Of a stretch of DNA of 36,503 bases, positions 4,172 to 35,869 are shown piece by piece. Position 1 is the stretch's first letter. Every line of letters starts with the position of its first letter. The notes beneath the pieces were generated by a model, which ran no database searches, had not been told where the DNA came from, and saw only the letters and a list, made by a program, of their open reading frames with translations. Origin of the DNA: a virus; the IMG/VR virus record IMGVR_UViG_3300027837_000003, positions 1 to 36,503 of that record. One strand, written 5' to 3'. The translations under genes and the position numbers were made by a program.

Positions 4172-5949
4172 TGGCTGACATCATACAGACAAGACGAGAC
4201 ACAGCCGCAAACTGGACGTTAGCGAACCCGATACTAGCGGATGGTGAAAAAGGTTGGGAGCGCGACACTGGTAAAGAGAAAATCGGTGATGGTGTTAGCT
4301 TGTGGTCCCTACTGCCTTATTTTGGCGGCGGTGGTGGTGGCGGTTTAGCCGCTGTTGTTGACGACTTAACACCACAGCTTGGCGGTGCATTGGATGTTAA
4401 TGGGCAGCTTATATCAGCAGTGCCCGGTATTGGTAATGACATCAACTTAGTCACTTTCGCTGATAGCCCTGCGGGGTCAACAGGCGGCATAAATATTGTC
4501 GTTGGCGATGCTCAAGGTAACACCAATTCCTTGATAGCAGGACAAGACGAAACAGATTACGTTTTTAATTTTAATGATGGTTCCTCATACGTTGTTGGTG
4601 ATGTAATCACCCTCACAGATGGGTCTACAGTAACGGTCGATGCCGTATCAGGCGGTTCAGTAACAGAGTTTACTGTTACTACTTCTGGTGGCACTTTTGT
4701 GGTGACTGAACCACGAACTAATTTGTTTCAAGCCAGTACGACTGGCAGTGGTCAGTTCTTCGCTTTAGAGCCGCGCCCAAGCAATGTAAATACGACTAAT
4801 TGGGATGGTGGTTCTGTAGCCATTAAAGCTGGCGGTGCTTCTGGTCAAGGTGATCGCGGTGGCATATCGATTCTCGCTGGTGATGGTGGCGCTAGTGGCG
4901 GCGAAATACTCATCAAAAGTGGTGACAGTGACGCGTTAGGCGGTGGTAATGGTGGCTACGCTGGCACACTAGAGATAGCGGTAGGGACAAGTTTTGGTGC
5001 ATCTGGTCAAGACATGCTCATTCGCGGCGGTAACACTGACTACCAAGGTGGCGATGCTTTTGGTGGACAAGTAATCATTCGTGGCGGTGCCTCATACGCC
5101 AGCACAGGTAACCCCGCTAATAGCTACGGTGGAAATGTAAGGCTTGAAGCTGGGCCGGGTCAGTACGCTGGATATCCTGCTGTTGAAGACGGTGGTGATG
5201 TAAGAATATACGCTGGTGATGGTACGCAAGTTGGTGGTGATATTTTATTGCAGGTCGGTGACGACACCACTAATGGATCAAACCCCGGCACGGTCGAGCT
5301 ACGTGGACCGAATGGTATGCCCACAGCCCCTATTTTTGAGTTCACTGAAGCTAGGGCAAATGGTTCTGAAAAGGTAGGTATCCGTGCTTCCGCGCAAATG
5401 GACGGTGGTGAATCCTACATCCTAACGCTTCCCCCAACGAACTCAACAGGAGTACAAGTACTCACTAACGATGGTACTGGTATTTTGAGTTGGGAAGATG
5501 GTGGTGGTGGTGGTGGTGGCATCAGCGCTGTTGTTGAGGACTTGACACCACAGCTTGGTGGCCCATTGGATGTCAATGGCCAGCAAATTATTTCGGTCCC
5601 GGGTGCGGCGATCAATATAATTTCCCAGACGACTAATTATTATGGTGGTGATATAAACATACTGTCTGGCCCCACCTCAACCTACAACCCTCCCCAGATA
5701 AACATAGCTGCCGGTGATGGCGCGTACTACGGTGGTAAGGTAATCCTAACTGCCGGTGACTCACCAAGCGGTTACTATGGTGGGGATATAGAGTTGAGGC
5801 CCGGTACTTGCAACTACGGAACCAGAACGGGTGCTGTGCTTATAGCTAATAACGGTGCTACTGGTAACCCGGTAGGTGGCTTAACAGACAAGCTATATAA
5901 CATTGGGGGTGCGTTATACTGGAATGGCACTCTGATAGGGCCAGCTTAA
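4171..5949 (+). CDS. Second tail fibre/spike, paralogue of the preceding fibre
   Basis: A 592-aa fibre starting at the ATG at 4171, chosen because GGAGGA lies eight bases upstream and because MADIIQTRRDTAANWT aligns with the start of the preceding fibre; an upstream extension lacks that homology. Residues 1-50 form the Mtd-type N-terminal domain. Two VVxDLTPQLGGxLDVNGQ linkers (about residues 64 and 456) follow poly-Gly runs, suggesting internal duplication. A non-glycine insert near residues 130-200, with YVVGDVITLTDGSTVTVDAV and SGGSVTEFTV, matches a module common in phage particle proteins. The remainder is GG-repeat shaft. It lacks the C-terminal beta-domain of the first fibre and ends with KLYNIGGALYWNGTLIG. 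Probably a second receptor-binding or accessory fibre. Confidence 0.75.
   Translation: MADIIQTRRDTAANWTLANPILADGEKGWERDTGKEKIGDGVSLWSLLPYFGGGGGGGLAAVVDDLTPQLGGALDVNGQLISAVPGIGNDINLVTFADSPAGSTGGINIVVGDAQGNTNSLIAGQDETDYVFNFNDGSSYVVGDVITLTDGSTVTVDAVSGGSVTEFTVTTSGGTFVVTEPRTNLFQASTTGSGQFFALEPRPSNVNTTNWDGGSVAIKAGGASGQGDRGGISILAGDGGASGGEILIKSGDSDALGGGNGGYAGTLEIAVGTSFGASGQDMLIRGGNTDYQGGDAFGGQVIIRGGASYASTGNPANSYGGNVRLEAGPGQYAGYPAVEDGGDVRIYAGDGTQVGGDILLQVGDDTTNGSNPGTVELRGPNGMPTAPIFEFTEARANGSEKVGIRASAQMDGGESYILTLPPTNSTGVQVLTNDGTGILSWEDGGGGGGGISAVVEDLTPQLGGPLDVNGQQIISVPGAAINIISQTTNYYGGDINILSGPTSTYNPPQINIAAGDGAYYGGKVILTAGDSPSGYYGGDIELRPGTCNYGTRTGAVLIANNGATGNPVGGLTDKLYNIGGALYWNGTLIGPA
4192..4217 (+). repeat. 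26-bp exact repeat at the fibre gene starts, copy 2
   Basis: Second copy of the 26-bp direct repeat at 2190-2215. Recombination between them would remove about 2 kb and join the two fibres in frame. Confidence 0.9.
4350..4376 (+). repeat. 27-bp exact repeat in the VVDDLTP linker, copy 2
   Basis: Identical to 2345-2371. It follows a poly-Gly run in the second fibre, as a module hinge. Confidence 0.85.
5526..5552 (+). repeat. 27-bp diverged repeat in the VVEDLTP linker, copy 3
   Basis: Two changes relative to the other copies (GACGACTTA to GAGGACTTG), encoding AVVEDLTP. It also follows a poly-Gly run, so a third module boundary occurs inside the second fibre. Confidence 0.85.
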
Positions 5950-12304: not shown

Positions 12305-13855
12305 ATGGCTAAATGGGTAAGTGCTGATGCACTGAGAGTCCAAGATTTAGGGCTCACTAATGCTGTCAATCAGGGCATTGCAGGGTACAGATTCGGGCAA
12401 GAGCAAAAAGGCATTCGAGACCAAGAAGAACTTGGTTCTATGATGGCAGCTATTCCTGAAGCTGAGCAGACAACACAAATGGTTGCTTCAGAGCAAAGCA
12501 ACATGCTCGCAGACCAGACTGCTGACTTTGCTGATGAGCCGGTAATAGCAAACCCCCACCAAGTAACTGCTATTCCTGAATCTGAGGCTGCGGTGCAGCA
12601 AATGGGCAAGCGGAAGAAAACCACTACCAGTAAAGATTGGAAGTCTTGGGAAGAAGGTATTCGAAAAAAAGCCGGGGCTATGGGACCCAAAGCACTTGCA
12701 GATGCTAACGCTCACATATCCACCACAAAGCAGGGTTCGTTGCGTGAGAACGCAGCTACTGCTATGGCAGCTATGAGGGCGGGTGACCTCAGGACCGCTA
12801 AGGATGCCCTACAGGAAGCGTACACTAGCTTCCCTGATGGTAACCGTGCGGAGATTGAAGAAGTTGGCGGGAAACTCGTTGCAAATATCTACAACGAGGA
12901 TACTGGGCAACTCGTAGAAAGTAAGCCTATTGGCCCACAAGATATGGCTGACATCGTCAGGATATCTGAGGACCCTGTCGCATACGCTGACGCTGTTCGT
13001 CAAGCGGAACTCGACGCAGTCGCAGTCGCAGAAGATCGTACCCGTTTTGATATCACTGAAGGTCGCCTATCAACACAAGTCAGTAACGATATGACCCTTG
13101 GTGAGCGCCGGTTGAAGATGCAGGAAGGCCAAGCGGCTATTGACGCGGTCAGGTCTGGCGTACAGAACGAGGAATCTCGTCAGAAGATGGCGCAAATCGT
13201 AAGCAACATGGAGGAACTGGTTAAAGCTTCAAAGCGTGCTGACGATATGACTGAAGCGGATATTAACAAGGCTGAGTCTTCTATTGAGAAAACAAAAGCG
13301 GATATGGAAATCGACGCTGCTAAGCTGAAACTCGAGCAGATTGCCTATATTGGTGATGGTGCTAGCCGTAATCTGAAGCGGCAAAAAATCGACGCTGAAA
13401 TTAAGGAGCTTGAAGCTAAAGCCGCATACTACGCAGGTGGTGGTACTAAGGCAGCTGGCAAGACCTATTTTGCCAAGCGTAACGATTTGTTGCAGAGGAT
13501 GAACACTGCTGCTAAGAGTATGGAGGCTGCAGATGAAGCTATGGCTTCAGAAAACAAACGCGCAGAGTTTGCTAAGAGTAAGGGTAAGCCATACACAATC
13601 AACCCAACTGTTGAAAAAGCTTACCAGCGTGAGCAAGAGCGATACAAACTTATCACTGATATGTGGACTAGCCTTGAACAGCAATATGAACCAAAGGATG
13701 GACCAGAAGTTGTATCACCAGCTTCAGCGATACCAGCCCCGGGCACCCCAGCTGCTACCCCATCGACTGCTGGTCCTGCAATCGGAGCAACAGCGACCAA
13801 CCCGACCACGGGGGAAGTAGTAGAGTGGGATGGTACTAACTGGATTCCCATGTAA
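12305..13855 (+). CDS. Internal virion protein, long helical
   Basis: A 516-aa, almost wholly helical, charged protein, with coiled-coil runs at about residues 230-400 (SNMEELVKASKRADDMTEAD; IEKTKADMEIDAAKLKLEQ). The C-terminus has a proline/alanine/threonine linker followed by TNPTTGEVVEWDGTNWIPM, an end commonly seen on phage ejection proteins. A TAGGAG sequence lies before the ATG at 12305, and its TAA shares TAATG with the next gene. With the preceding 475-aa protein and the following 2645-aa protein it makes a three-gene set in the place where short-tailed phages keep the proteins ejected ahead of their DNA. Function otherwise unknown. Confidence 0.6.
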   Translation: MAKWVSADALRVQDLGLTNAVNQGIAGYRFGQEQKGIRDQEELGSMMAAIPEAEQTTQMVASEQSNMLADQTADFADEPVIANPHQVTAIPESEAAVQQMGKRKKTTTSKDWKSWEEGIRKKAGAMGPKALADANAHISTTKQGSLRENAATAMAAMRAGDLRTAKDALQEAYTSFPDGNRAEIEEVGGKLVANIYNEDTGQLVESKPIGPQDMADIVRISEDPVAYADAVRQAELDAVAVAEDRTRFDITEGRLSTQVSNDMTLGERRLKMQEGQAAIDAVRSGVQNEESRQKMAQIVSNMEELVKASKRADDMTEADINKAESSIEKTKADMEIDAAKLKLEQIAYIGDGASRNLKRQKIDAEIKELEAKAAYYAGGGTKAAGKTYFAKRNDLLQRMNTAAKSMEAADEAMASENKRAEFAKSKGKPYTINPTVEKAYQREQERYKLITDMWTSLEQQYEPKDGPEVVSPASAIPAPGTPAATPSTAGPAIGATATNPTTGEVVEWDGTNWIPM

Positions 13856-16800
13856 TGGCGGCTCAACTTCCAGCCGGTTTCGTACTCGATGAGAGCGAGG
13901 AACAAACTGCGGGTGCGCTTCCCCCGGGTTTTCAGCTGGATGCCCCTAAACCACCACCTTTATTAGCTAGGGATGAGTCCGTAACATCAGGTATCCCTGA
14001 GAAGACCACTTCTGAAAATATTGGTACTTTGGTTGATAAAGGCAATATCAGAAACGCACAGGCAGTTGGCGGCTTGGCGATGGCCGCTGCAGACGCTGGT
14101 ACTGGTGAGTACGACTGGTCACTGATGGGTGACGAAACCCACTATCCAGTTTGGTCAGTACAAGGTGCGCTTGATCTTGTTGGTGACGTTACCAAAAAAA
14201 TTGGTGGTGACATCGTAGGACTAGGTGTCGATGCTGCGGATATGGTTATCGATGGTGATGTTCGCGCTTCATTGCAAGAGACTGGCAAGCTGTTGCAGGA
14301 AGGCGGCAACTTAATGCTGAACGACCCTAAAAACCAGATCGACGCAGAGGGGTTTGAAGGGTATCTATACGAAGTTGGTGAAGGCTTGTATGGTATGGCT
14401 GGCCCACTGGCGGTGGGTGCGCTCACTGGTGGTGTTGGTATGTTCGGCGCACTCGCCGCGCAAGTAGGTGGTGCCAAATATGGCGAAGTGATGGAGAAGA
14501 CCGGCGGCGATCACGTTAAAGCATCAAATGCTGCCTTATTTGCAGTCGCTGCTGAAGCACTTCCTGAAATGATCCCAATGAATGCTGCCCTTAGAAAGGG
14601 TGGTGGTGGCGAAGCATTTTCACGCATCATTGAAACCACGTTAGGTGAAGGTGCACAAGAGTGGCTGACCAGTATTCTTGAGCAGACTTACGATGCTAAT
14701 CAGCTAGAAAATATGTCGCTAAAGGACGCTATTCTTGGTGTCGATTTATCTGAGGCTAATCACTCATTTCTTGTTGGCTTGGGTGTCGGTACTGGCTTGG
14801 GTACTCCCGGTGCTATCGCGGACCTCGCTGCTGAAAAAGAAGCAATCGCTAGTGGAATAGATAAGACAAAAGCTACTTTCAGCGACATGGCTGATAAGAT
14901 TCTTGAAGGGACTGGTCTTGGTAAAAAGCCAGAGCCTGAAAACTATGTTGATGACTTCTCAGCACCAGCTGAGCAAGACAGTGTCGATATGGACTTGGAC
15001 CTCAACGAGTATGTCGTAGCAGACATGAAAGCTGCTGACGAGGCCGCAGCATTAGTCCCTGACGGGGCTGTTGTGCCTGAGGCTCCAGAGACCATTGAGC
15101 GCCAACTTGAAGTCATGCGCGACCCAGCGGCAGAGCGCAAGGCAGTATATCTGCCTGAGGGGCAAGCAGTACCCGATCTTCCTGAAGGTGAAAGAGCTAT
15201 GGCTCTTGGCGATGGAAGCACCTTAGTGTTTCCTGAATCTGCTGAAAGCATACAGATAGTAACTGACCTGTACGAGGCCATACAGAATGGCGATGAAGCA
15301 GCTAAACAAGCAGTTATCGCTAGTGCCACTGGTATTGGTGGTCAGGGTAAGACTCCCGGCGCTCCCGCAGTTGTAGTAACGGACCCTGATGGTACGGTCG
15401 TACAGTCAGCGGTCGCTGATCCTGCTGGTGAGGTCTTGGCAGCTGCTGAAGCCGTAGCCGCACCCCGTGGTGCTGAGGTCTCAGTAGAAGACCCACAGGC
15501 TGTTGTTGCTGACCGGGGAATACCTACTGATTTAGAAGCCGGTTTAGAAACTGCGCCTGTGACAGATTTAGAGGCCGGTTTGGAAACTGCGCCTGTGACA
15601 GATTTGGAAGCTGGCCTCAATGAAACACTTGAGTATGGCCAGCCGCAGACTCTTGGTACACAACAAGCTATTGATGCTGTTCAGTTAGGTCTTACAAACC
15701 ATCAAGCGGCTATTGATGCGTATGCTGGCGAGCCCGGGCGTAAGCCTAGAGGCAATGAAGAACAGCTCATGGCTGCGGATTCAGTGTGGGTGACCATGGC
15801 GAATAACGTGATACCTCAGCTTGAACAGGAAGGCTATGACGTTACTCAGCTAAAAGCGATATTGCAAAAAGCGGCAGGGAATAAACCAGCCACTATGGGC
15901 ACCGCTAAAATGCGCGGTAATGCGCCTATCGCTGGCCGAAGGAGTAACCCGGGTGGTAGGGGTCGTCGGTCACCTACTGGTGGGTGGGGTCCTGTACTGG
16001 ATACGTTCTACAAGGGCATGAGTGCGGAAGTTAATCGCTTAATAAATGAAGGTCCTACCGGCATACCGAAAGTAGTCGCACCGCTAGCCAAGAAAGCAGC
16101 AGCAGTTACTAAGGCTCGTCGCGCGAAAGCTGCACCTGTTGCTGAGCCCGTAACACCTATTGCTGAGCCCGTAACACCTGTTGCTGAGCCCGTAACACCT
16201 ACCCCTGAGTATGAAGGTGTTGCTGAGGAAGCTTCAGCTGAGCCAGTCACTGAAGAAGAAAAGGAAATTCTCGATACTGAGGCTAAGCTCACAACAGAAG
16301 AAGCAGAGGCCCGTGGGACGGACGTAGCAGGTAAAGGGGTAGCTGATATAGAAGTCAGTAAAAAATACGCAAAAAGCCAACGTAGCAGCCCTGAGGAAGA
16401 AGCGGCCATCCTTGCTGAGCGTGCGGAAAAAGAAGAAAAAAATATCAGTGATAAGTTGATCGCTAAGCAACGTAAAAAAGTAGAGTCGGAAGCTGCCGCT
16501 GCCAAGCAAGCGGAGGAAATTACCGCTGCCGCTGAAGCCGCTGCAAAAGCCAAGCCAGTCATCAAAGTAAAAAAGAAGCCTCGCAAACGAGCAGAGACCG
16601 CCGATGCTAAGAAGGCCAGACTAACGGCCAAGATGGAAGCTGAATCAAAAGCATTCGCAGCTGAAATGAAAGGTGGCGGTCGCCGCAAAAAGGCCCCTGC
16701 CCCAATGGGTAAAGAAAGCTTAGGCATAACCACGCCAGCTGCTGAAGCTAAGCCTACAACATGGGTCGAGGAACAAGCGACAAGGCGCATACCAGATACA

Positions 16801-19800
16801 GGCAAGCCAGCGAAGAAGACGCTCAGTGATATTGACATCGTAGCAGTAGGTATGAAGGGTGGTGCTGAAGTCGTAGCACAATCTGTTGCCAACTCCACGC
16901 AAACGGGTGACATCGCTACTCTCAGCATGAAGGCTGGGGATGCTGTCGTGTCACCGGCTAATAATAAAGGCTACATGAAAGGAAACATGAAGGCCGCTGG
17001 CAAGAATATCGATGGTGCTTATGTCGATATGTTTGGTGACCAAATCCAAGACCGTGTACAGGCTAAGATGCAAGCTTTGTATGATGGGGATATGCCTCTG
17101 GGTGAGGCGTTTGTAATACGCACCTATCCAGAAGGTACGCCGATACCCGTGGGTAAGCCGGGTTGGCTGGTAGTTTCTCCGACAGTGACTTATCAAGAAT
17201 CAGGTATGCCCCCAAAAGCTACGCCAGATTTAGCGGGTAAGGCAATGACCAATGTCCTGAAGGCCGTAGGTGATGCTGGTATTGATCGCGTGTTTATGCC
17301 AGCTATGGGCATGGGCTCGACGGTCGGTGCTAAAAACATGCAGAACGATTTCCGTAAGGAATTCCAGAATGCCTATGATGTGGCCGACGAGTATCTTGAT
17401 GCTAACGCTAACCCGTCTACGAACCAGACTTCAGAGCTGAGTGAAGAAGACACCGCTTTCCTCGCTGATCTAGCTGGTGGCACGGTGCTGGAAGATAAGT
17501 CACCCAACAAGAAAGTTGCTGACTACGAGCGTGTTGTTGCTGAGCTTGAAGCTGACATGCAGAAGCTTAACAAGCAGCACTTCGACGAGACCGGGGAACG
17601 CCTTGTCTATCTGGTGCATGGTGGCTCCAAAGTGAACGCTGCAGCTCTGGCTATGGACCCACGCCTGAAGATGACCCGCTATGGTATACGGGGGGTTTAT
17701 GCTACGCCCTCGAATGCGAAGTCTGCTGCTGAGTTCGCAGTGACAAAGAAAGGCCCTGATGGTGTTGGCTTAGCAACATGGGTTATGACCGAGTCAGAAT
17801 ATGCACGGCAACAGCGACTAGGCAACATTGTCTTGGGCACGATGGATATCATCAACCCGAAGACAGGTGATATTAAGTCTGTCCCTGAGGTCGTAATATC
17901 AGAGGTTGCTTTGGCTTATGTTGAGGACTCACGGGCATACATGGACTCAGCGCCAGAAGCACAAGCTAAGTCACTGGCGGGTAATCCTGAAGCCAAAAAT
18001 ATTATGTTTGGCCGGGAAATAGCCGCAGGGTATTTGGACGAAGTTTATGACGAGCGCGGCACTGTGCGAGCCAACGATATCCTAGATATTATTGATGCTG
18101 AACTGGCCGAAGGTGATCCCTATAAAACTCTGATCCAGAGAATGCGGGACGTAGGCGTGGCCAAAATAATGACCATGCGTGCTACTCCGGAGCAAATGGG
18201 CAGAGTTGCCAAACCTACGACTAACGGTGCATTCGTCAATGGGCTCAGTGGTGAGCCTAAGATCATGTTGAACGATAGCATTATGGGTGACGGGTTTAGC
18301 GTTAAGGTATTCATGCACGAAATGATTCACGCCATGACAAGCGAGGCACTGCGTACAAACAACGCTACGGCCTTAAAGCTTGAAGCCTTACGCAAGCGCG
18401 TGATTAAAGAGTTAGAACGTGAGGGAGGCAAATACGCAGCGCAGGACTATGGCTTTACAAATGTTGATGAGTTCGTTGCAGAAGCGATGACTAACCCAAG
18501 CTTTCAACGTGCACTAGCCGGTGTAAATGTTGGTAAGGGTGAGACCTTGTGGACAAAGTTCGTAGACATCGTGGCCAACATGCTTGGGGTTCCAGTCGAA
18601 TCCAAGTCTGCTCTTGCTGAGGCGTTGACACTAAGCAACAACCTGTTTATGAGCCCAACTGAAATAGCTCAAACCCGAGCAGAAAACGCAGCACCCTACA
18701 TTGTGCCCCGGCAAGCTGTGACTCAGCGACCTCTGAGCCAGATACCTGATATCAATGAGTACAATCCTACCGAGGAAGAACTGATGGCTCAGATGCTGGG
18801 CGATGGATCACTGCGTGTTCTTCAGCATCAGAGTGTTCGCGATACCGTGCAAGGCATGGGCGATATTATAAATAGAAAAGTGGATGCAAAAGAATTTGCT
18901 AAGGATGCTGCTAATTCGTTTACAGTACGGTTGAACCTCAGCACGATGGATCAGGTCATCCGAAATCATTCGCATAGGTTTGTTAAAAACGGTAAGAATT
19001 TACTGAAAAATCTCCAGACTATTCATCGAAAGAAGACACAGATTGCACGCGACTTGCAGCAAAAAGCTGGCGCTATCGATAAGCTCTGGAAAGAAATGGA
19101 GAAGTTCAAGGGCGGGTATAAAATGACCGAGCAGCTGGGTAAGCTGATGCGGGATTCTACTTTGAATAATATCCACCCTGATGCCGCGTTCTACAGTATG
19201 AAGAACAAGCACCTCTGGTTTAAGAAAAGCCCAGCTACTATCAAGCGTAATCAGGAAAGGCACACTGCCGCGCAAGCTGAGTTCAATAAGCTTACTGGCC
19301 GAGCTAAGAGTATTTTTCGTCAGGTCCGGGAGTTCTATAAGGACCAGCGTGTTGAAATGCGTAAGGCCACCATCGAGAAAATAGCCAAGGCCAATAAGCT
19401 CGATGGTCAGCTGTCAGCTGCGGACATGGTAACCATACTCAACGCAAAAGAACCTGCTGATATTGCGGACGTAGATTTTACCCCAATGGCTGATATGGCT
19501 GATGGTGTTAAGCAGTCATTAGAAACAGTGTTGTTCTCCACTTCGGTCGAGGGTCCATACTTCCCACTTCGTCGATTTGGTGACGTTGCTGTTGATGCAG
19601 AAAGGATAACTACCTCACTGGCTCACCCAGACCGAAAGTCAGCATATGCGGCGGCAAAGGCTCTGCGTGCTGAGCATCCGCTAGATAAAATAAAGTCCCG
19701 CAAAATTGATGGGTCATGGGTTGTCGAGCGTTCAGAGAGAATTTACGAAACATTCGAAACTGAGCGTGCAGCTAGAAAACGTGTGCACCAGCTGAACAGT

Positions 19801-21792
19801 GGTCCTAACCCGTTCAAGATGCGCGGACAAGATGGTCCTGTCGAGTCTACTTTACAGCAACCGTCTAATCATGTTGAGGGGTCAGGAGCAGGGGCCTTAT
19901 TGCAAAAAGCCAAGGGCAAGCTTGACGAAAACAGCCAAGAGTTCAAGGCTTTGGAAACTGCGTTCACTGAAATGTTGTTGGCTAACTCTCTCCGTAAAGC
20001 GGAGCTGAAGCGTAACCGTGTTAAGGGCGCGTCGATCAACATGCGCCGGGGATTCGCTGAGCGTGCTTTTGCTGGGTCATGGGCGCTGGCTGATTTGAAA
20101 ACATCGTTTGATCAAGCTGAAGCTATGTCAGAACTTGATAAGTTCGCTCGCACAGAAGCCAAGGATAAAATAAAAGCCGGTAAGATAGTAAAAACTTTGA
20201 ATCAACGCTGGAACAAAGAGCTGTCTGAGCGCAAAACATCCAAGTGGGACGCAGTAATGTCCAAGCTGGGATTCACGTGGTTCTTGATGTCACCGTCTTA
20301 CACACTGATCAACATGACTCAACCTATGTTAGTGGCTCAGCCATACCTCATAGGCAAGTATGGGGTCAAAGGTGCTGGTGCTTTGTTCAAAGCGTACAAT
20401 GGTGTCACTCAGGTAGCAGTCAAAGAACTGTGGAAAACTAAAGCTGGTTGGCAGAGTGGGCCTGAAAATATGCTGGACCTTGTAGTCGCTGAGTATAAGG
20501 GCACACCTACCGGCGACATGATCCAAACGCTAGCTGACCAAGGCATTATCGATGCTACATTTATGCAGGAACTCTATGAGGCCAGCCAAGGGAAAAGTGA
20601 TAGGGGTGTCGGTGCCAAGGTCGTGAACAAGACTATGGATATTGCGCGGACCATGCCTCAGATTGCTGAGGTCGTAAACCGTGTTGTTGTCGCCAAGGCA
20701 GCGTATGAGCTGGAGATTAAGCAAGGGGCAACTCACGAACAGGCAGTCGAAGGTGCTGGTGAAGCCATTTTACAAACTCAGTTTGATTACTCCGACCAAA
20801 ATAAGCCACCGCTATTTAAAGGATTCCCCGGGGTCAAGTCCGTGATGATGTTCAAAATGTATGGGCAGGGGATGTATGCTTTGTTCGCCTCGAATATTGT
20901 TAAGACTTTCAAAGGCGGTACTCCAGAGTTAAGGGCTGAAGGCATCAAGACAGTATCATTACTTCTCGCGAGCCACACTGCTGCCGCTGGTACGCTGGGC
21001 GGTTTGATGTTGGAGCCAATCAGGGCGCTGCTTTGGGCGCTCAGCCAGCTGCTTGAAGAAGATGACGAGGAATGGGATGTCGATGCTACTATCGAGATAT
21101 TCTTGAAAGACACGCTGGGTGATGGGTTTTGGGGTGAAGCTGCTACCAGAGGTTTATTCTCAGCTGCAGATATAGGTGGTGGTGAGCGCGTAGCACTATC
21201 AAGCGCCTTGTTGATGCCCCCCAACGATACAAAGGATGTTCGCGCGGCTTGGATCGAGCTGCTGCTAAAGCTTGGCGGTCCCGTGGTTGGTGCTACGGTC
21301 TCAATAGCAGATGGTATACAGCAGATCAAGAATGGTGACTATGTGAAGGGCACTGAGAAAATAGTACCTAAAGGATTCAGGGACATGATGCGCGGCGGTT
21401 ACCGATATCCAACTGAAGGCCCAACGGGCTATGGTGGTGAACAACTCCCTGTTGACTTGGGTGCTGGGGATATGATTTCACAATTTTTTGGTGTTACGCC
21501 AGCAGCGATGACTAAATATTACGCTGGTGCCGGGGCATTGAAAAAGCACCAGACACAAATAGAAACCAAGCGTAAGTCGCTTATCCACGAGTGGAGCCGG
21601 TCTGACAATCCTGTCGAGTTTGAAATGGAGCACGTGATGCCATTCAACATGCGTCACGATCCTAAGTGGGAAGTCACTGAGGAAAATCTCAAGAATAAGC
21701 TCGAGGGTAGAGAGGACAAGCAAGACCTGTTAATGTTTGGTGATGATGACTTCTCAATGGAAGAAATGGAACTGCAAAGGTTGATACCATAA
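13855..21792 (+). CDS. Giant multidomain ejection protein: macro, ART-like and metallopeptidase domains
   Basis: A 2645-aa protein. Region order: LPAGFVLDE-type N-terminus (1-35); glycine/alanine-rich, possibly membrane-inserting helices (about 175-330); acidic linkers with 12-residue repeats (559-588) and AEPVTP repeats (763-782); a lysine/alanine/glutamate-rich helical stretch (about 830-950). A macro domain spans about 986-1186 (GDIATL, VVSPANNKGYMKG, PLGEAF, MPAMGMGSTVG). A possible ADP-ribosyltransferase-like domain spans about 1230-1360, with H1255 in LVHGGS, Y1282 in YGIRGVYATP and acidic residues near 1345-1350. A zinc peptidase-like domain has H1488-E1489-x-x-H1492 and EFVAEAMTN (1539-1547). 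The rest is helical, with YFPLRRFG and membrane-like helices (about 2366-2400), resembling large polyvalent phage proteins. No lytic transglycosylase was recognised. It is probably ejected into the host. Confidence 0.75.
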   Translation: MAAQLPAGFVLDESEEQTAGALPPGFQLDAPKPPPLLARDESVTSGIPEKTTSENIGTLVDKGNIRNAQAVGGLAMAAADAGTGEYDWSLMGDETHYPVWSVQGALDLVGDVTKKIGGDIVGLGVDAADMVIDGDVRASLQETGKLLQEGGNLMLNDPKNQIDAEGFEGYLYEVGEGLYGMAGPLAVGALTGGVGMFGALAAQVGGAKYGEVMEKTGGDHVKASNAALFAVAAEALPEMIPMNAALRKGGGGEAFSRIIETTLGEGAQEWLTSILEQTYDANQLENMSLKDAILGVDLSEANHSFLVGLGVGTGLGTPGAIADLAAEKEAIASGIDKTKATFSDMADKILEGTGLGKKPEPENYVDDFSAPAEQDSVDMDLDLNEYVVADMKAADEAAALVPDGAVVPEAPETIERQLEVMRDPAAERKAVYLPEGQAVPDLPEGERAMALGDGSTLVFPESAESIQIVTDLYEAIQNGDEAAKQAVIASATGIGGQGKTPGAPAVVVTDPDGTVVQSAVADPAGEVLAAAEAVAAPRGAEVSVEDPQAVVADRGIPTDLEAGLETAPVTDLEAGLETAPVTDLEAGLNETLEYGQPQTLGTQQAIDAVQLGLTNHQAAIDAYAGEPGRKPRGNEEQLMAADSVWVTMANNVIPQLEQEGYDVTQLKAILQKAAGNKPATMGTAKMRGNAPIAGRRSNPGGRGRRSPTGGWGPVLDTFYKGMSAEVNRLINEGPTGIPKVVAPLAKKAAAVTKARRAKAAPVAEPVTPIAEPVTPVAEPVTPTPEYEGVAEEASAEPVTEEEKEILDTEAKLTTEEAEARGTDVAGKGVADIEVSKKYAKSQRSSPEEEAAILAERAEKEEKNISDKLIAKQRKKVESEAAAAKQAEEITAAAEAAAKAKPVIKVKKKPRKRAETADAKKARLTAKMEAESKAFAAEMKGGGRRKKAPAPMGKESLGITTPAAEAKPTTWVEEQATRRIPDTGKPAKKTLSDIDIVAVGMKGGAEVVAQSVANSTQTGDIATLSMKAGDAVVSPANNKGYMKGNMKAAGKNIDGAYVDMFGDQIQDRVQAKMQALYDGDMPLGEAFVIRTYPEGTPIPVGKPGWLVVSPTVTYQESGMPPKATPDLAGKAMTNVLKAVGDAGIDRVFMPAMGMGSTVGAKNMQNDFRKEFQNAYDVADEYLDANANPSTNQTSELSEEDTAFLADLAGGTVLEDKSPNKKVADYERVVAELEADMQKLNKQHFDETGERLVYLVHGGSKVNAAALAMDPRLKMTRYGIRGVYATPSNAKSAAEFAVTKKGPDGVGLATWVMTESEYARQQRLGNIVLGTMDIINPKTGDIKSVPEVVISEVALAYVEDSRAYMDSAPEAQAKSLAGNPEAKNIMFGREIAAGYLDEVYDERGTVRANDILDIIDAELAEGDPYKTLIQRMRDVGVAKIMTMRATPEQMGRVAKPTTNGAFVNGLSGEPKIMLNDSIMGDGFSVKVFMHEMIHAMTSEALRTNNATALKLEALRKRVIKELEREGGKYAAQDYGFTNVDEFVAEAMTNPSFQRALAGVNVGKGETLWTKFVDIVANMLGVPVESKSALAEALTLSNNLFMSPTEIAQTRAENAAPYIVPRQAVTQRPLSQIPDINEYNPTEEELMAQMLGDGSLRVLQHQSVRDTVQGMGDIINRKVDAKEFAKDAANSFTVRLNLSTMDQVIRNHSHRFVKNGKNLLKNLQTIHRKKTQIARDLQQKAGAIDKLWKEMEKFKGGYKMTEQLGKLMRDSTLNNIHPDAAFYSMKNKHLWFKKSPATIKRNQERHTAAQAEFNKLTGRAKSIFRQVREFYKDQRVEMRKATIEKIAKANKLDGQLSAADMVTILNAKEPADIADVDFTPMADMADGVKQSLETVLFSTSVEGPYFPLRRFGDVAVDAERITTSLAHPDRKSAYAAAKALRAEHPLDKIKSRKIDGSWVVERSERIYETFETERAARKRVHQLNSGPNPFKMRGQDGPVESTLQQPSNHVEGSGAGALLQKAKGKLDENSQEFKALETAFTEMLLANSLRKAELKRNRVKGASINMRRGFAERAFAGSWALADLKTSFDQAEAMSELDKFARTEAKDKIKAGKIVKTLNQRWNKELSERKTSKWDAVMSKLGFTWFLMSPSYTLINMTQPMLVAQPYLIGKYGVKGAGALFKAYNGVTQVAVKELWKTKAGWQSGPENMLDLVVAEYKGTPTGDMIQTLADQGIIDATFMQELYEASQGKSDRGVGAKVVNKTMDIARTMPQIAEVVNRVVVAKAAYELEIKQGATHEQAVEGAGEAILQTQFDYSDQNKPPLFKGFPGVKSVMMFKMYGQGMYALFASNIVKTFKGGTPELRAEGIKTVSLLLASHTAAAGTLGGLMLEPIRALLWALSQLLEEDDEEWDVDATIEIFLKDTLGDGFWGEAATRGLFSAADIGGGERVALSSALLMPPNDTKDVRAAWIELLLKLGGPVVGATVSIADGIQQIKNGDYVKGTEKIVPKGFRDMMRGGYRYPTEGPTGYGGEQLPVDLGAGDMISQFFGVTPAAMTKYYAGAGALKKHQTQIETKRKSLIHEWSRSDNPVEFEMEHVMPFNMRHDPKWEVTEENLKNKLEGREDKQDLLMFGDDDFSMEEMELQRLIP
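15529..15618 (+). repeat. 36-bp in-frame tandem repeat inside the giant protein gene
   Basis: Two full copies and one half copy of a 36-bp unit encode DLEAGLETAPVT twice and then DLEAGL (residues 559-588). Copies differ only at a few third-codon positions, so duplication is fairly recent or maintained by slippage. It lies in an acidic, probably flexible linker ahead of the catalytic-looking domains. Confidence 0.85.
16141..16200 (+). repeat. 21-bp in-frame tandem repeat (AEPVTP units)
   Basis: Three near-identical 21-bp units encode AEPVTP separated by I or V (residues 763-782). The proline/threonine composition suggests an extended hinge between the N-terminal part and the charged helical stretch of the giant protein. 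Confidence 0.85.
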
Positions 21793-24847: not shown

Positions 24848-24872
24848 AGCAGTCTCTTATTGTAAAAGAAGG

Positions 24873-24934
24873 CGGTGCCTCACTCCCACGTGCTGCTCTT
24901 GGGTCTAGCCAGAACAGGGGGAAGCAAGGCACCG
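24873..24934 (-). promoter_or_regulatory. Long structured RNA hairpin in the primase leader
   Basis: Read on the - strand, CGGTGCCT (24934-24927) pairs perfectly with AGGCACCG (24880-24873). Inside, CTTCCCC pairs with GTGGGAG (one mismatch) and CTGTTCT pairs with AGAGCAG (one G-U), around an 11-base loop. The sequence after the helix is CCTTCTTTT. No start codon leads to a useful ORF in this 106-base gap. It could be a leader stem, an attenuator, or a short stable RNA ending in the T-rich stretch. Confidence 0.5.
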
Positions 24935-24941
24935 GCCCATC

Positions 24942-24970
24942 AGCATAGGCTTATTACCCGAGACTGTCCA
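24942..24970 (-). promoter_or_regulatory. Putative sigma70 promoter for the primase gene
   Basis: TGGACA (24965-24970, - strand) and TATGCT (24942-24947) are separated by 17 bases. The -35 box has five of six consensus bases, the -10 four of six. The -35 lies within the last codons of the upstream SSB-like gene. The predicted transcription start, near 24935, falls exactly at the base of the leader hairpin. Confidence 0.4.
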
Positions 24971-26140: not shown

Positions 26141-26523
26141 TTTTTGAACCTCGCGAAGGTCTCTGATGTGATGACGACCCCCGGGGGGAGCTCGCCGGTT
26201 GATTCCCTGAACTGGTCAACAGCCTCGGGAGTAAGTTTCATCTGCATCATGTCAATCAAGTCATTATCCAGAATGAATGGGCGCAGCAACTTCCAGTCGT
26301 CGATCTTGGGACGAACAGTTGTGCTCTGGTACGTTGTACCTGCTGCAGTCTTCATGTTTTGAACACCCGCTTTCTGCAGTTCAGCAAGCACGAGGTTTTC
26401 AATCTTGGTCATTGCCTCGTTGTAAGGTGCGAGAATGAGTTTGTGCTCATCCGTAAGCACTTTCTTTTTGTCGCGTAGTTCAATGAACTTAGCTACGGCT
26501 CGCTCAATTACTTGGTCGGTCAT
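26137..26523 (-). CDS. Conserved phage replication-cluster protein
   Basis: A 128-aa protein. An N-terminal charged helical half (KFIELRDKKKVLTDEHKLI; MTKIENLVLAELQKAGVQ) is followed by MKTAAGTTYQSTTVRPKIDDWKLLRPFILDNDL and an ending containing ELPPGVVI. This pattern, helix then GTxY...DW..l..fi and PPGv, recurs in uncharacterised phage proteins that travel with SSB and recombination genes. It overlaps both neighbours by ATGA. A DNA-associated role is likely; no catalytic motif is visible. Confidence 0.6.
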   Translation of the reverse strand: MTDQVIERAVAKFIELRDKKKVLTDEHKLILAPYNEAMTKIENLVLAELQKAGVQNMKTAAGTTYQSTTVRPKIDDWKLLRPFILDNDLIDMMQMKLTPEAVDQFRESTGELPPGVVITSETFARFKK

Positions 26524-26822
26524 AGCAGCATATCCCCTGTTTCATATTTACGAGCTATATCGTCATCCCATGGCAGGGGTTCAGGTTCATCGTGGAATAC
26601 GATGCGGGTCCCATATTCAGGGTGACCGTGTACCAGCATGGCAGTCTTGAAGCTGTCCCACACAGAGGTGGACTTGCAAGCGGTAAGCCAGCGAATGGCA
26701 CAAGAGCCATCGGTGAAAATGATGCCTTCGTATTGGGCTTCACCTTCGGGGTTTTTTTGGTTTGAGTTGTGAGTAGCATGGTGCGTATCCATGTCGTCAC
26801 GGTATGCGGTAAATCGTTTCAT
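26520..26822 (-). CDS. Conserved phage protein of unknown function
   Basis: A 100-aa soluble protein with a polar, histidine-rich N-terminus and a conserved-looking centre YEGIIFTDGSCAIRWLTACKSTSVWDSFKTAML followed by HGHPEYGTRI. Similar segments occur in uncharacterised phage proteins. Its ATG at 26822 follows AGAGAC five bases upstream and is the first gene after a strong promoter-like sequence (26857-26884). It therefore probably leads the SSB/primase transcript. It ends in an ATGA overlap with the next gene. No enzymatic motif recognised. Confidence 0.55.
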   Translation of the reverse strand: MKRFTAYRDDMDTHHATHNSNQKNPEGEAQYEGIIFTDGSCAIRWLTACKSTSVWDSFKTAMLVHGHPEYGTRIVFHDEPEPLPWDDDIARKYETGDMLL

Positions 26823-34112: not shown

Positions 34113-34393
34113 TAGTGCTTCCTCTTAATTGTGTGGGTTCCCGGCTCTTGCCCTACTAATGACCAGCCACCCTCGTTGATGTCAGAAAGAATGGCACCCC
34201 CGATTTCCTTCAGGTCACCGCCGTGCATGTCAGGGTCGAGCGACAGTGCGCTGCGGACACACGTGGCAAAGAACTGAGTCAGTTCAGTTTGTGTCACCGG
34301 CTCTTGAGGTTCTTCGCCTCGTATCAGCTGGGCAAAGTGCTGGCTCTGCTCGTCGTTGAGAGTGATGCTGAAATTGAATTTCGTTCTACTCAT
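34112..34393 (-). CDS. Phage protein of unknown function
   Basis: A 93-aa protein with a strand-like start (KFNFSITLNDEQSQHFAQLI), an acidic linker EEPQEPVTQTELTQ, a helix FFATCVRSALSLDP and a final beta part (GGWSLVGQEPGTHTIKRKH). Resembles a small alpha/beta fold but no family is recognised. ATGA overlap with the previous gene; TAATG overlap with the next. Confidence 0.5.
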   Translation of the reverse strand: MSRTKFNFSITLNDEQSQHFAQLIRGEEPQEPVTQTELTQFFATCVRSALSLDPDMHGGDLKEIGGAILSDINEGGWSLVGQEPGTHTIKRKH

Positions 34394-34650
34394 AACCGCT
34401 CACTCAAGTGTTGTATCACGCGGTCAGGATGAACAGCGTCAAGGTCAACACTGCAAAACACCTTGATGGATGCGACATCATCTGAAATCTGAAAGTATCG
34501 ATACAGGGAGTACTTTATCTCCATGCTGTTGCTGGCACGAAACTTGACTATTCGCTCAACGGTATCCTCCTGCGTGTCAATGATGCGAATAACTTCACAG
34601 CCTTGCGGCTCCCAATCTTCAATTGCTTCTTCAAGTAATTCCTGATTCAT
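34390..34650 (-). CDS. Phage protein of unknown function
   Basis: An 86-aa protein with a charged start (NQELLEEAIEDWEPQGCEVIRIID) and alternating strand pattern (ERIVKFRASNSMEIKYSLYRYFQI), ending in a helix HPDRVIQHLSERL. No motif or family recognised. Coupled by ATGA to both neighbours in the early operon. Confidence 0.5.
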   Translation of the reverse strand: MNQELLEEAIEDWEPQGCEVIRIIDTQEDTVERIVKFRASNSMEIKYSLYRYFQISDDVASIKVFCSVDLDAVHPDRVIQHLSERL

Positions 34651-34967
34651 ACTAGTTTCAACTCCGTGAGTTCAACGTCCCTTGGGTTCGGGGGCATTTT
34701 GTTTTCGAGGTAGGCAATCTTCAGCCCGTATATGGGGTGCTTATATGGTGCCAGCACGTCAAACACATCCAGCTTGCTGAGGTCTACGCCTGAGGTCTCG
34801 TGGTAATGCTTTACTGCCTTCGCCCACTCGAGCTCATAATCTATCGAGTATGTATCGCTCTCCAGCCCATGCTCAACGAGGACCTTCGTGCGCCATTCGA
34901 TTTTACTTACTGCGTGATAACCATCAGCAGCAAGAAACACCACAGCCATTTCTTTTAGCTTTGTCAT
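34647..34967 (-). CDS. Phage protein of unknown function
   Basis: A 106-aa protein. The N-terminus starts MTKLKEMAVVFLAADGYHAVSK (strand and glycine turn), then EWRTKVLVEHGLESDTYSI and acidic helices with YELEWAKAVKHYHETSGVDL. Its C-terminus PPNPRDVELTELKLV is extended. The fold cannot be identified. Its start overlaps the preceding stop by one base (TAATG). Confidence 0.5.
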   Translation of the reverse strand: MTKLKEMAVVFLAADGYHAVSKIEWRTKVLVEHGLESDTYSIDYELEWAKAVKHYHETSGVDLSKLDVFDVLAPYKHPIYGLKIAYLENKMPPNPRDVELTELKLV

Positions 34968-35227
34968 TACAGATACTCCGAGTGTAGTAATTCAAATTGG
35001 TTAGTAACGTCCACCCATTCGATGCGGGTGATCGAACTTATATCAAACGACAAACGGCCATCACACAGACGCACCAGCATTTCACTTGGATGGGAGATAT
35101 ATAGAAACGGGTTGCGGTGGTCGTTGGCCATGTAGTCAGCAACGGGGATATATAGCTTTCCAGTACACCACGCACTATCTTCTTTCGGGCCTTCGGGGGG
35201 TCTCGGATCGGGGGCAGTAATCTTCAT
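34967..35227 (-). CDS. First gene of the main early operon; unknown function
   Basis: An 86-aa protein with a proline-rich start (MKITAPDPRPPEGPKEDSAW) and a beta-rich body (LYISHPSEMLVRLCDGRLSFDISSITRIEWVDV). No family recognised. GGAGACCGACAC lies before the ATG. It is the first gene after the promoter at 35354-35381 and the structured leader (35256-35349), so it should be made early and abundantly. A role in early host takeover is plausible by position only. Confidence 0.5.
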   Translation of the reverse strand: MKITAPDPRPPEGPKEDSAWCTGKLYIPVADYMANDHRNPFLYISHPSEMLVRLCDGRLSFDISSITRIEWVDVTNQFELLHSEYL

Positions 35228-35255
35228 GTGTCGGTCTCCTAGTCAAGGATGGTTG

Positions 35256-35349
35256 TTTCTCTCGCAGTGCTATCACACCCCGTACTGCCTTACAGTCACG
35301 ATAGATGGGTCCCGGCAGACTTTGCAGGTCCAAGGGGATACGAGAGAAA
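35256..35349 (-). promoter_or_regulatory. Structured 5' leader RNA of the main early operon
   Basis: On the - strand, TTTCTCTCG (35349-35341) pairs with CGAGAGAAA (35264-35256); a G-U and an A-U pair extend the helix to eleven pairs. The enclosed sequence allows a CCCC/GGGG helix, a CTGCC/GGCAG helix, and a possible CTATC/GATAG pairing that would cross it as a pseudoknot. There is no ATG in the whole gap (35228-35377), which argues it is non-coding. Regulatory function is inferred. Confidence 0.5.
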
Positions 35350-35353
35350 TGGT

Positions 35354-35381
35354 AGTTTAACAGGCTGTTAGCCTATGTCAA
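35354..35381 (-). promoter_or_regulatory. Early sigma70-like promoter with overlapping palindromic operators
   Basis: TTGACA (35376-35381, - strand) and TAAACT (35354-35359) are 16 bases apart. Between them lie two overlapping perfect palindromes on the + strand: TAACA-GGC-TGTTA (35358-35370) and AGGCT-GTT-AGCCT (35362-35374). The -35 contains the TGA stop of the HNH gene. The predicted start, about 35347, opens the leader helix. Confidence 0.65.
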
Positions 35382-35869
35382 GGTGTATCTTCGATGTATG
35401 TGTTTCCTTTCTCGATATTTTCCTCCGCTAGTATTATTCGTAGGTTAGCAGGTACATGCAGACCACTCACTGTCTTGCCGTTGAGCGGTATGTGATGGTC
35501 AACATGGTATAGCGTGCCCGATATCCATGACTGGTTAGCAGCATCGAAATATATGTTGAGTATTTCTTCTCGCATTTCAGGCCACGTCACCCAGCCCCAA
35601 GGACACCGATTACGGAAGCTACGGCGCTGGGCTATGGTCCCTTGCTTCAACCGGAATGCTCGACGCATCATTTGTCGTCGTGATTTGTTGGTTGGGTCGC
35701 TTGGTTTGGGTATGAATGCACTCATCGTCTTAGATATACTCCTGTCAAAGTCGATGCGGCATTGCTTATGCTCAGCCGCGAATTGGTGTCGTTGTGGTGC
35801 GGTCAGGTAGTATTGCCTACCAAACTCCTGCTTGGCACCGCATACACACCGGATATAGTTCTTAGTCAC
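35378..35869 (-). CDS. HNH endonuclease
   Basis: A 163-aa protein. The C-terminal [38 protein letters not shown] has the HNH core: D-H-H, then GLHVPxNLR and N-x-x-K-x-N, with the usual loop between. An N-terminal [22 protein letters not shown] hints at a small zinc-finger-like element (CxC and later C). The central part is basic. Such HNH proteins in phages may be homing or DNA-packaging nucleases; here it lies far from the packaging genes, and could be a free-standing homing enzyme or an early nuclease. The start is GTG (35869), sharing GTGA with the preceding gene's stop. Confidence 0.75.

Follow-up and report, generated by a model that had tools for sequence, protein, structure and literature searches.

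An intergenic region within the replication genes of this virus carries a sigma-70-type promoter-like site, and transcription from it would produce an untranslated leader whose 5′ end is paired in the predicted fold. The reading that we prefer, and to which we give an even chance, is that an internal early promoter is followed here by a lineage-specific 5′ UTR, the paired 5′ end of which may slow decay of the mRNA as it does in ompA. Overall, the combination of promoter and leader is an ordinary finding.

Genomic setting and promoter-like site

The window, by which we mean the whole stretch of DNA analysed, is one virus record of 36,503 bases and probably a fragment. Tail and virion genes occupy the plus strand and the replication genes, coding for a DUF927 primase/helicase, an SNF2 helicase, a RecB-like exonuclease and a family A DNA polymerase, the minus strand. 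A 2645-aa open reading frame (13855-21792, plus strand) adjoins the virion genes; in a distant relative, Rhizobium phage RHph_TM3_14A, a very long gene of ~6.9 kb likewise faces the replication genes.

On the minus strand a gap of 150 nt (35377-35228) separates the gene of an HNH-type endonuclease, directly upstream (35378-35869), from a gene of 86 aa (34967-35227) for which neither a family nor any relative was found. The gap lies upstream of the small genes leading to the DNA polymerase. The initial annotation had reported that it contains no ATG, and this was confirmed across 35377-35228, where all frames scored unlike the genes of the phage. A hidden reading frame was considered and rejected, the best frame having a codon score of -0.25, whereas the median for genes is +0.25. 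Scanning for tRNA and tmRNA returned zero matches.

The promoter-like site (35354-35381, minus strand) reads TTGACA-16-TAAACT and scores 10 of 12 matches, a value attained by 1.2% of gap shuffles. Its -35 hexamer, TTGACA (35381-35376), shares bases with the HNH gene's stop codon, and its -10 hexamer, TAAACT (35359-35354), has a TG one base upstream (TGTTAAACT), which makes it an extended -10. As in sigma-70-type promoters, both hexamers are present, the 16-nt spacer falls within the range of 16-18 nt and the position is intergenic. A purine is absent at the usual distance from TAAACT, and the start is a prediction. From its sequence, a promoter before the 86-aa gene is credible. The site had been described as an early promoter; the promoter-like site is there, but "early" is less apt than a description as a promoter internal to the early/replication operon. 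Within the right half of the window a different promoter-like site scores best, TTGACA-16-TATAGT with 11 of 12 matches (26884-26857, minus strand), which sits in the 58-nt gap preceding gene 26520-26822.

The two hexamers surround a pair of overlapping palindromes, both of which were located as initially described (35374-35358, minus strand). One, TAACAGCCTGTTA (35370-35358), is a perfect 13-bp palindrome of the form 6+1+6; the other, AGGCTaacAGCCT (35374-35362), overlaps it. When the 28-bp promoter was shuffled, a perfect palindrome with arms of at least 6 appeared in 1.6% of the shuffles and both palindromes together in 0.08%. Window-wide, palindromes with arms of at least 6 are at chance level, with 37 observed and 36 expected.

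Promoter/operator sites in which a palindrome separates the -35 and -10 hexamers are a general kind known from phages. A dimeric phage or host regulator could bind the palindrome as an operator and shut the promoter, and this would be the main regulation at the site. The exact placement of a perfect palindrome and a second, overlapping one between the hexamers, and the rarity of the pair among shuffles, favour such an operator, and to this extent the operator-like arrangement proposed in the initial annotation stands as possible. Recurrent sites were, however, found neither in the window nor in the closest relative (L006, described below): the window has no convincing second site above chance and L006 has none, and the promoter of L006 lacks a palindrome. 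The small genes scanned include no cognate regulator, though the record is incomplete. An operator as the main regulation here is considered unlikely. The site resembles the general promoter/operator sites in having its palindrome inside the promoter and differs from them in being single, with no regulator found.

The predicted leader and its fold

Placed by the position of the -10 hexamer, the transcript would carry a 5′ untranslated leader of ~120 nt (35228-35350, minus strand), which is non-coding by codon score and by its lack of an ATG. Within it, a 94-nt segment (35256-35349) is closed by a helix of 11 pairs, one of them G-U, between arms 35349-35339 and 35266-35256. This is the eleven-pair helix of the initial annotation, and in the predicted fold its pair probability is ~1 in the middle. 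The accompanying proposal that the 5′ end is buried in the helix also agrees with the model, in which starts predicted at 35350-35346 leave 0-1 free 5′ nucleotides; for these starts, themselves predicted positions, the 5′ end would be paired, as in ompA-type messages. Among 1000 gap shuffles, 3 gave a helix of 11 pairs; since the window has ~10 gaps, this rarity is no more than suggestive. Along the minus strand, helices of such size and span number 2 against ~2.4 expected and are not commoner than chance. Taken as a modelled feature, the closing helix is credible.

The minimum free energy (MFE) fold of the leader has an energy of about -32 kcal/mol (z -1.9 to -2.05), which 5.7% of minus-strand windows match or beat. 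The most stable by far of the intergenic folds tested lies elsewhere, at 24848-24953 (minus strand; -48.9 kcal/mol, z -5.4), and consists of a long GGUGCCUUGCUUCCCC/GGGAGUGAGGCACC stem ahead of the DUF927 primase/helicase gene; the corresponding gap of L006 has a strong but different hairpin (16095-16163, -23.5 kcal/mol, z -2.6).

The interior of the leader had been read as a set of CCCC/GGGG and CTGCC/GGCAG helices with a crossing CTATC/GATAG pair. These complementary stretches are all present, but they are not the predicted fold. The MFE structure retains the closing helix and neither of the inner ones, whose pair probabilities are 0.04 (CCCC/GGGG) and 0.003 (CTGCC/GGCAG), and the nested scheme, at -22.4 kcal/mol, lies 9 kcal/mol above the MFE of -31.8 kcal/mol. 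The crossing duplex adds ~-2.8 kcal/mol. Pseudoknots lie outside the model of the folding program, so these energies disfavour the pseudoknotted scheme rather than exclude it. Any crossing pair of 5-bp helices was present in 22% of shuffled interiors and the exact nested-plus-crossing topology, which was picked post hoc, in 0.5%.

The low frequency of that exact topology is what speaks for a multi-branched, pseudoknotted leader acting as a regulatory RNA, a sensor of some signal or of a phage protein. Against it stand the inner-helix probabilities and energies and also the environment of the ribosome-binding site. The Shine-Dalgarno sequence AGGAGA (35235-35240, minus strand) lies in a predicted local hairpin of 4 bp (UCCU/AGGA) that is independent of the leader; its pairing is equal with or without the leader, and thus no translational switch is apparent.

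The Rfam result likewise counts against a sensing RNA. Rfam returned no match, either for the window at the gathering threshold or for the leader with a permissive E-value, and the leader thus corresponds to none of the cis-regulatory RNA or riboswitch families described there. By blastn, phage and plasmid records contained no significant match. Two single-sequence covariance models, one built on the initially proposed fold and one on the MFE fold, found no relatives in ~1.7 Mb of fetched DNA that included the whole of L006, the best other matches having E-values of ~1 or above. Scanning viral contigs for the exact arms of the closing helix yielded 5 stretches, and a core-pattern scan of genome contigs showed scattered hits among the matches listed; because none scores convincingly with the covariance model, these stretches were taken as chance. 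With no relatives from blastn or the covariance models and no such leader in the closest relative, no structure preserved through compensatory changes was found. We therefore regard a sensing leader as very improbable, and equally so the more specific proposal that this lineage-specific leader forms a closed pseudoknotted domain controlling early expression, perhaps through the binding of a phage protein. The leader interior probably does not form any defined device.

A similar promoter in the closest relative

Among the viral contigs one close relative was identified, IMGVR_UViG_3300028598_000002 (L006), with identities of 66-67% for the DNA polymerase, 69% for the SNF2 helicase and 62% for the HNH protein. 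Alignment searches with the early genes, the HNH gene and the DNA polymerase returned L006 again and nothing else as close, and none among the genome contigs. Literature searches yielded general mRNA-decay reviews and no paper on the phage group.

L006 has a promoter of the same type, TTGACA-17-TACACT (best -10; 4236-4264), standing 24 nt ahead of the orthologue of the third gene downstream of the window's leader (34390-34650). Like the window's promoter, it has TTGACA as its -35 and TAAACTAC in the -10 region and precedes the orthologous gene block, and both are followed by the Shine-Dalgarno context AGGAGACCGACA. It differs in its 17-nt spacer, in its TACACT hexamer, in having no palindrome and in its leader, which is ~18 nt long and without appreciable structure. 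A Shine-Dalgarno context GGAGACCGACATG is stereotyped before many early genes of L006 (790-8429); GGAGACYGRC occurs at 9 places in L006, and the window gene behind the leader has the context too (35240).

The HNH gene of L006 lies further down the operon, where the next gene follows after 11 nt with no promoter or leader between. No counterpart was detected in L006 for the first two genes that follow the leader in the window. Judging from gene order, the promoter position looks shared by the two phages, and on the sequences compared the palindrome and leader occur only in the lineage of the window, next to an HNH gene whose place has changed. Since a similar promoter stands in the nearest known relative without this leader, there is no sign of a conserved RNA device.

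These differences bear on the possibility that the promoter works and the leader is functionless, a spacer left by gene shuffling beside the mobile HNH gene, with the helix a chance inverted repeat. L006 lacks the leader as well as the two genes that follow it, the HNH gene has moved, no relatives of the leader were found anywhere searched, the strand shows no excess of helices this large over chance, and the stability of the fold is modest. Such a spacer would, on the other hand, have to contain by accident an 11-pair helix in this very gap that begins at the predicted start, the 3-in-1000 event of the gap shuffles. We consider it possible, with rather less than an even chance, and it comes a close second to protection of the 5′ end.

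Proposed protection of the 5′ end

In the preferred reading of 5′-end protection, the virus is a DNA phage whose early/replication operon contains an internal promoter; a host polymerase of the sigma-70 type would transcribe from it the small-gene block that leads up to the DNA polymerase. The transcript probably begins near the predicted start at 35347, and its 5′ end, paired in a predicted helix of 9-11 pairs, would slow 5′-end-dependent decay by RppH and RNase E in the manner of ompA. Both enzymes need single-stranded 5′ ends, which explains stabilisation by 5′ structures (PMC3997798, section 6), and for this reason protection of the message is the most economical function for the helix. 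Transcripts reading through from upstream genes would have no paired 5′ end and hence no protection.

Several results agree with this reading: the intergenic promoter match with its extended -10, the comparable promoter of L006, the helix probability of ~1 and the non-coding nature of the gap. Counting against it are the absence of a purine at the usual distance, the chance-level frequency of helices this large along the strand, the modest stability of the fold (z ~-1.9), the unprotected readthrough transcripts and the fact that L006 manages without the leader. If the helix works as we infer, this would add a further case of a phage mRNA shielded at its 5′ end, and the protection would have arisen or disappeared recently at a promoter which the relative keeps without such a leader. 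It would then illustrate the turnover of leaders at a shared promoter and leave the picture of phage gene control unchanged.

The known systems closest to the proposed arrangement are the 5′-terminal stem-loops that stabilise the ompA and papA mRNAs in E. coli. In these, as predicted here, the helix lies at or within ~1 nt of the 5′ end and does not sequester the ribosome site. They are short hairpins, whereas the helix of the window closes a branched segment of 94 nt, is absent from the nearest relative and is placed at the 5′ end by a predicted start.
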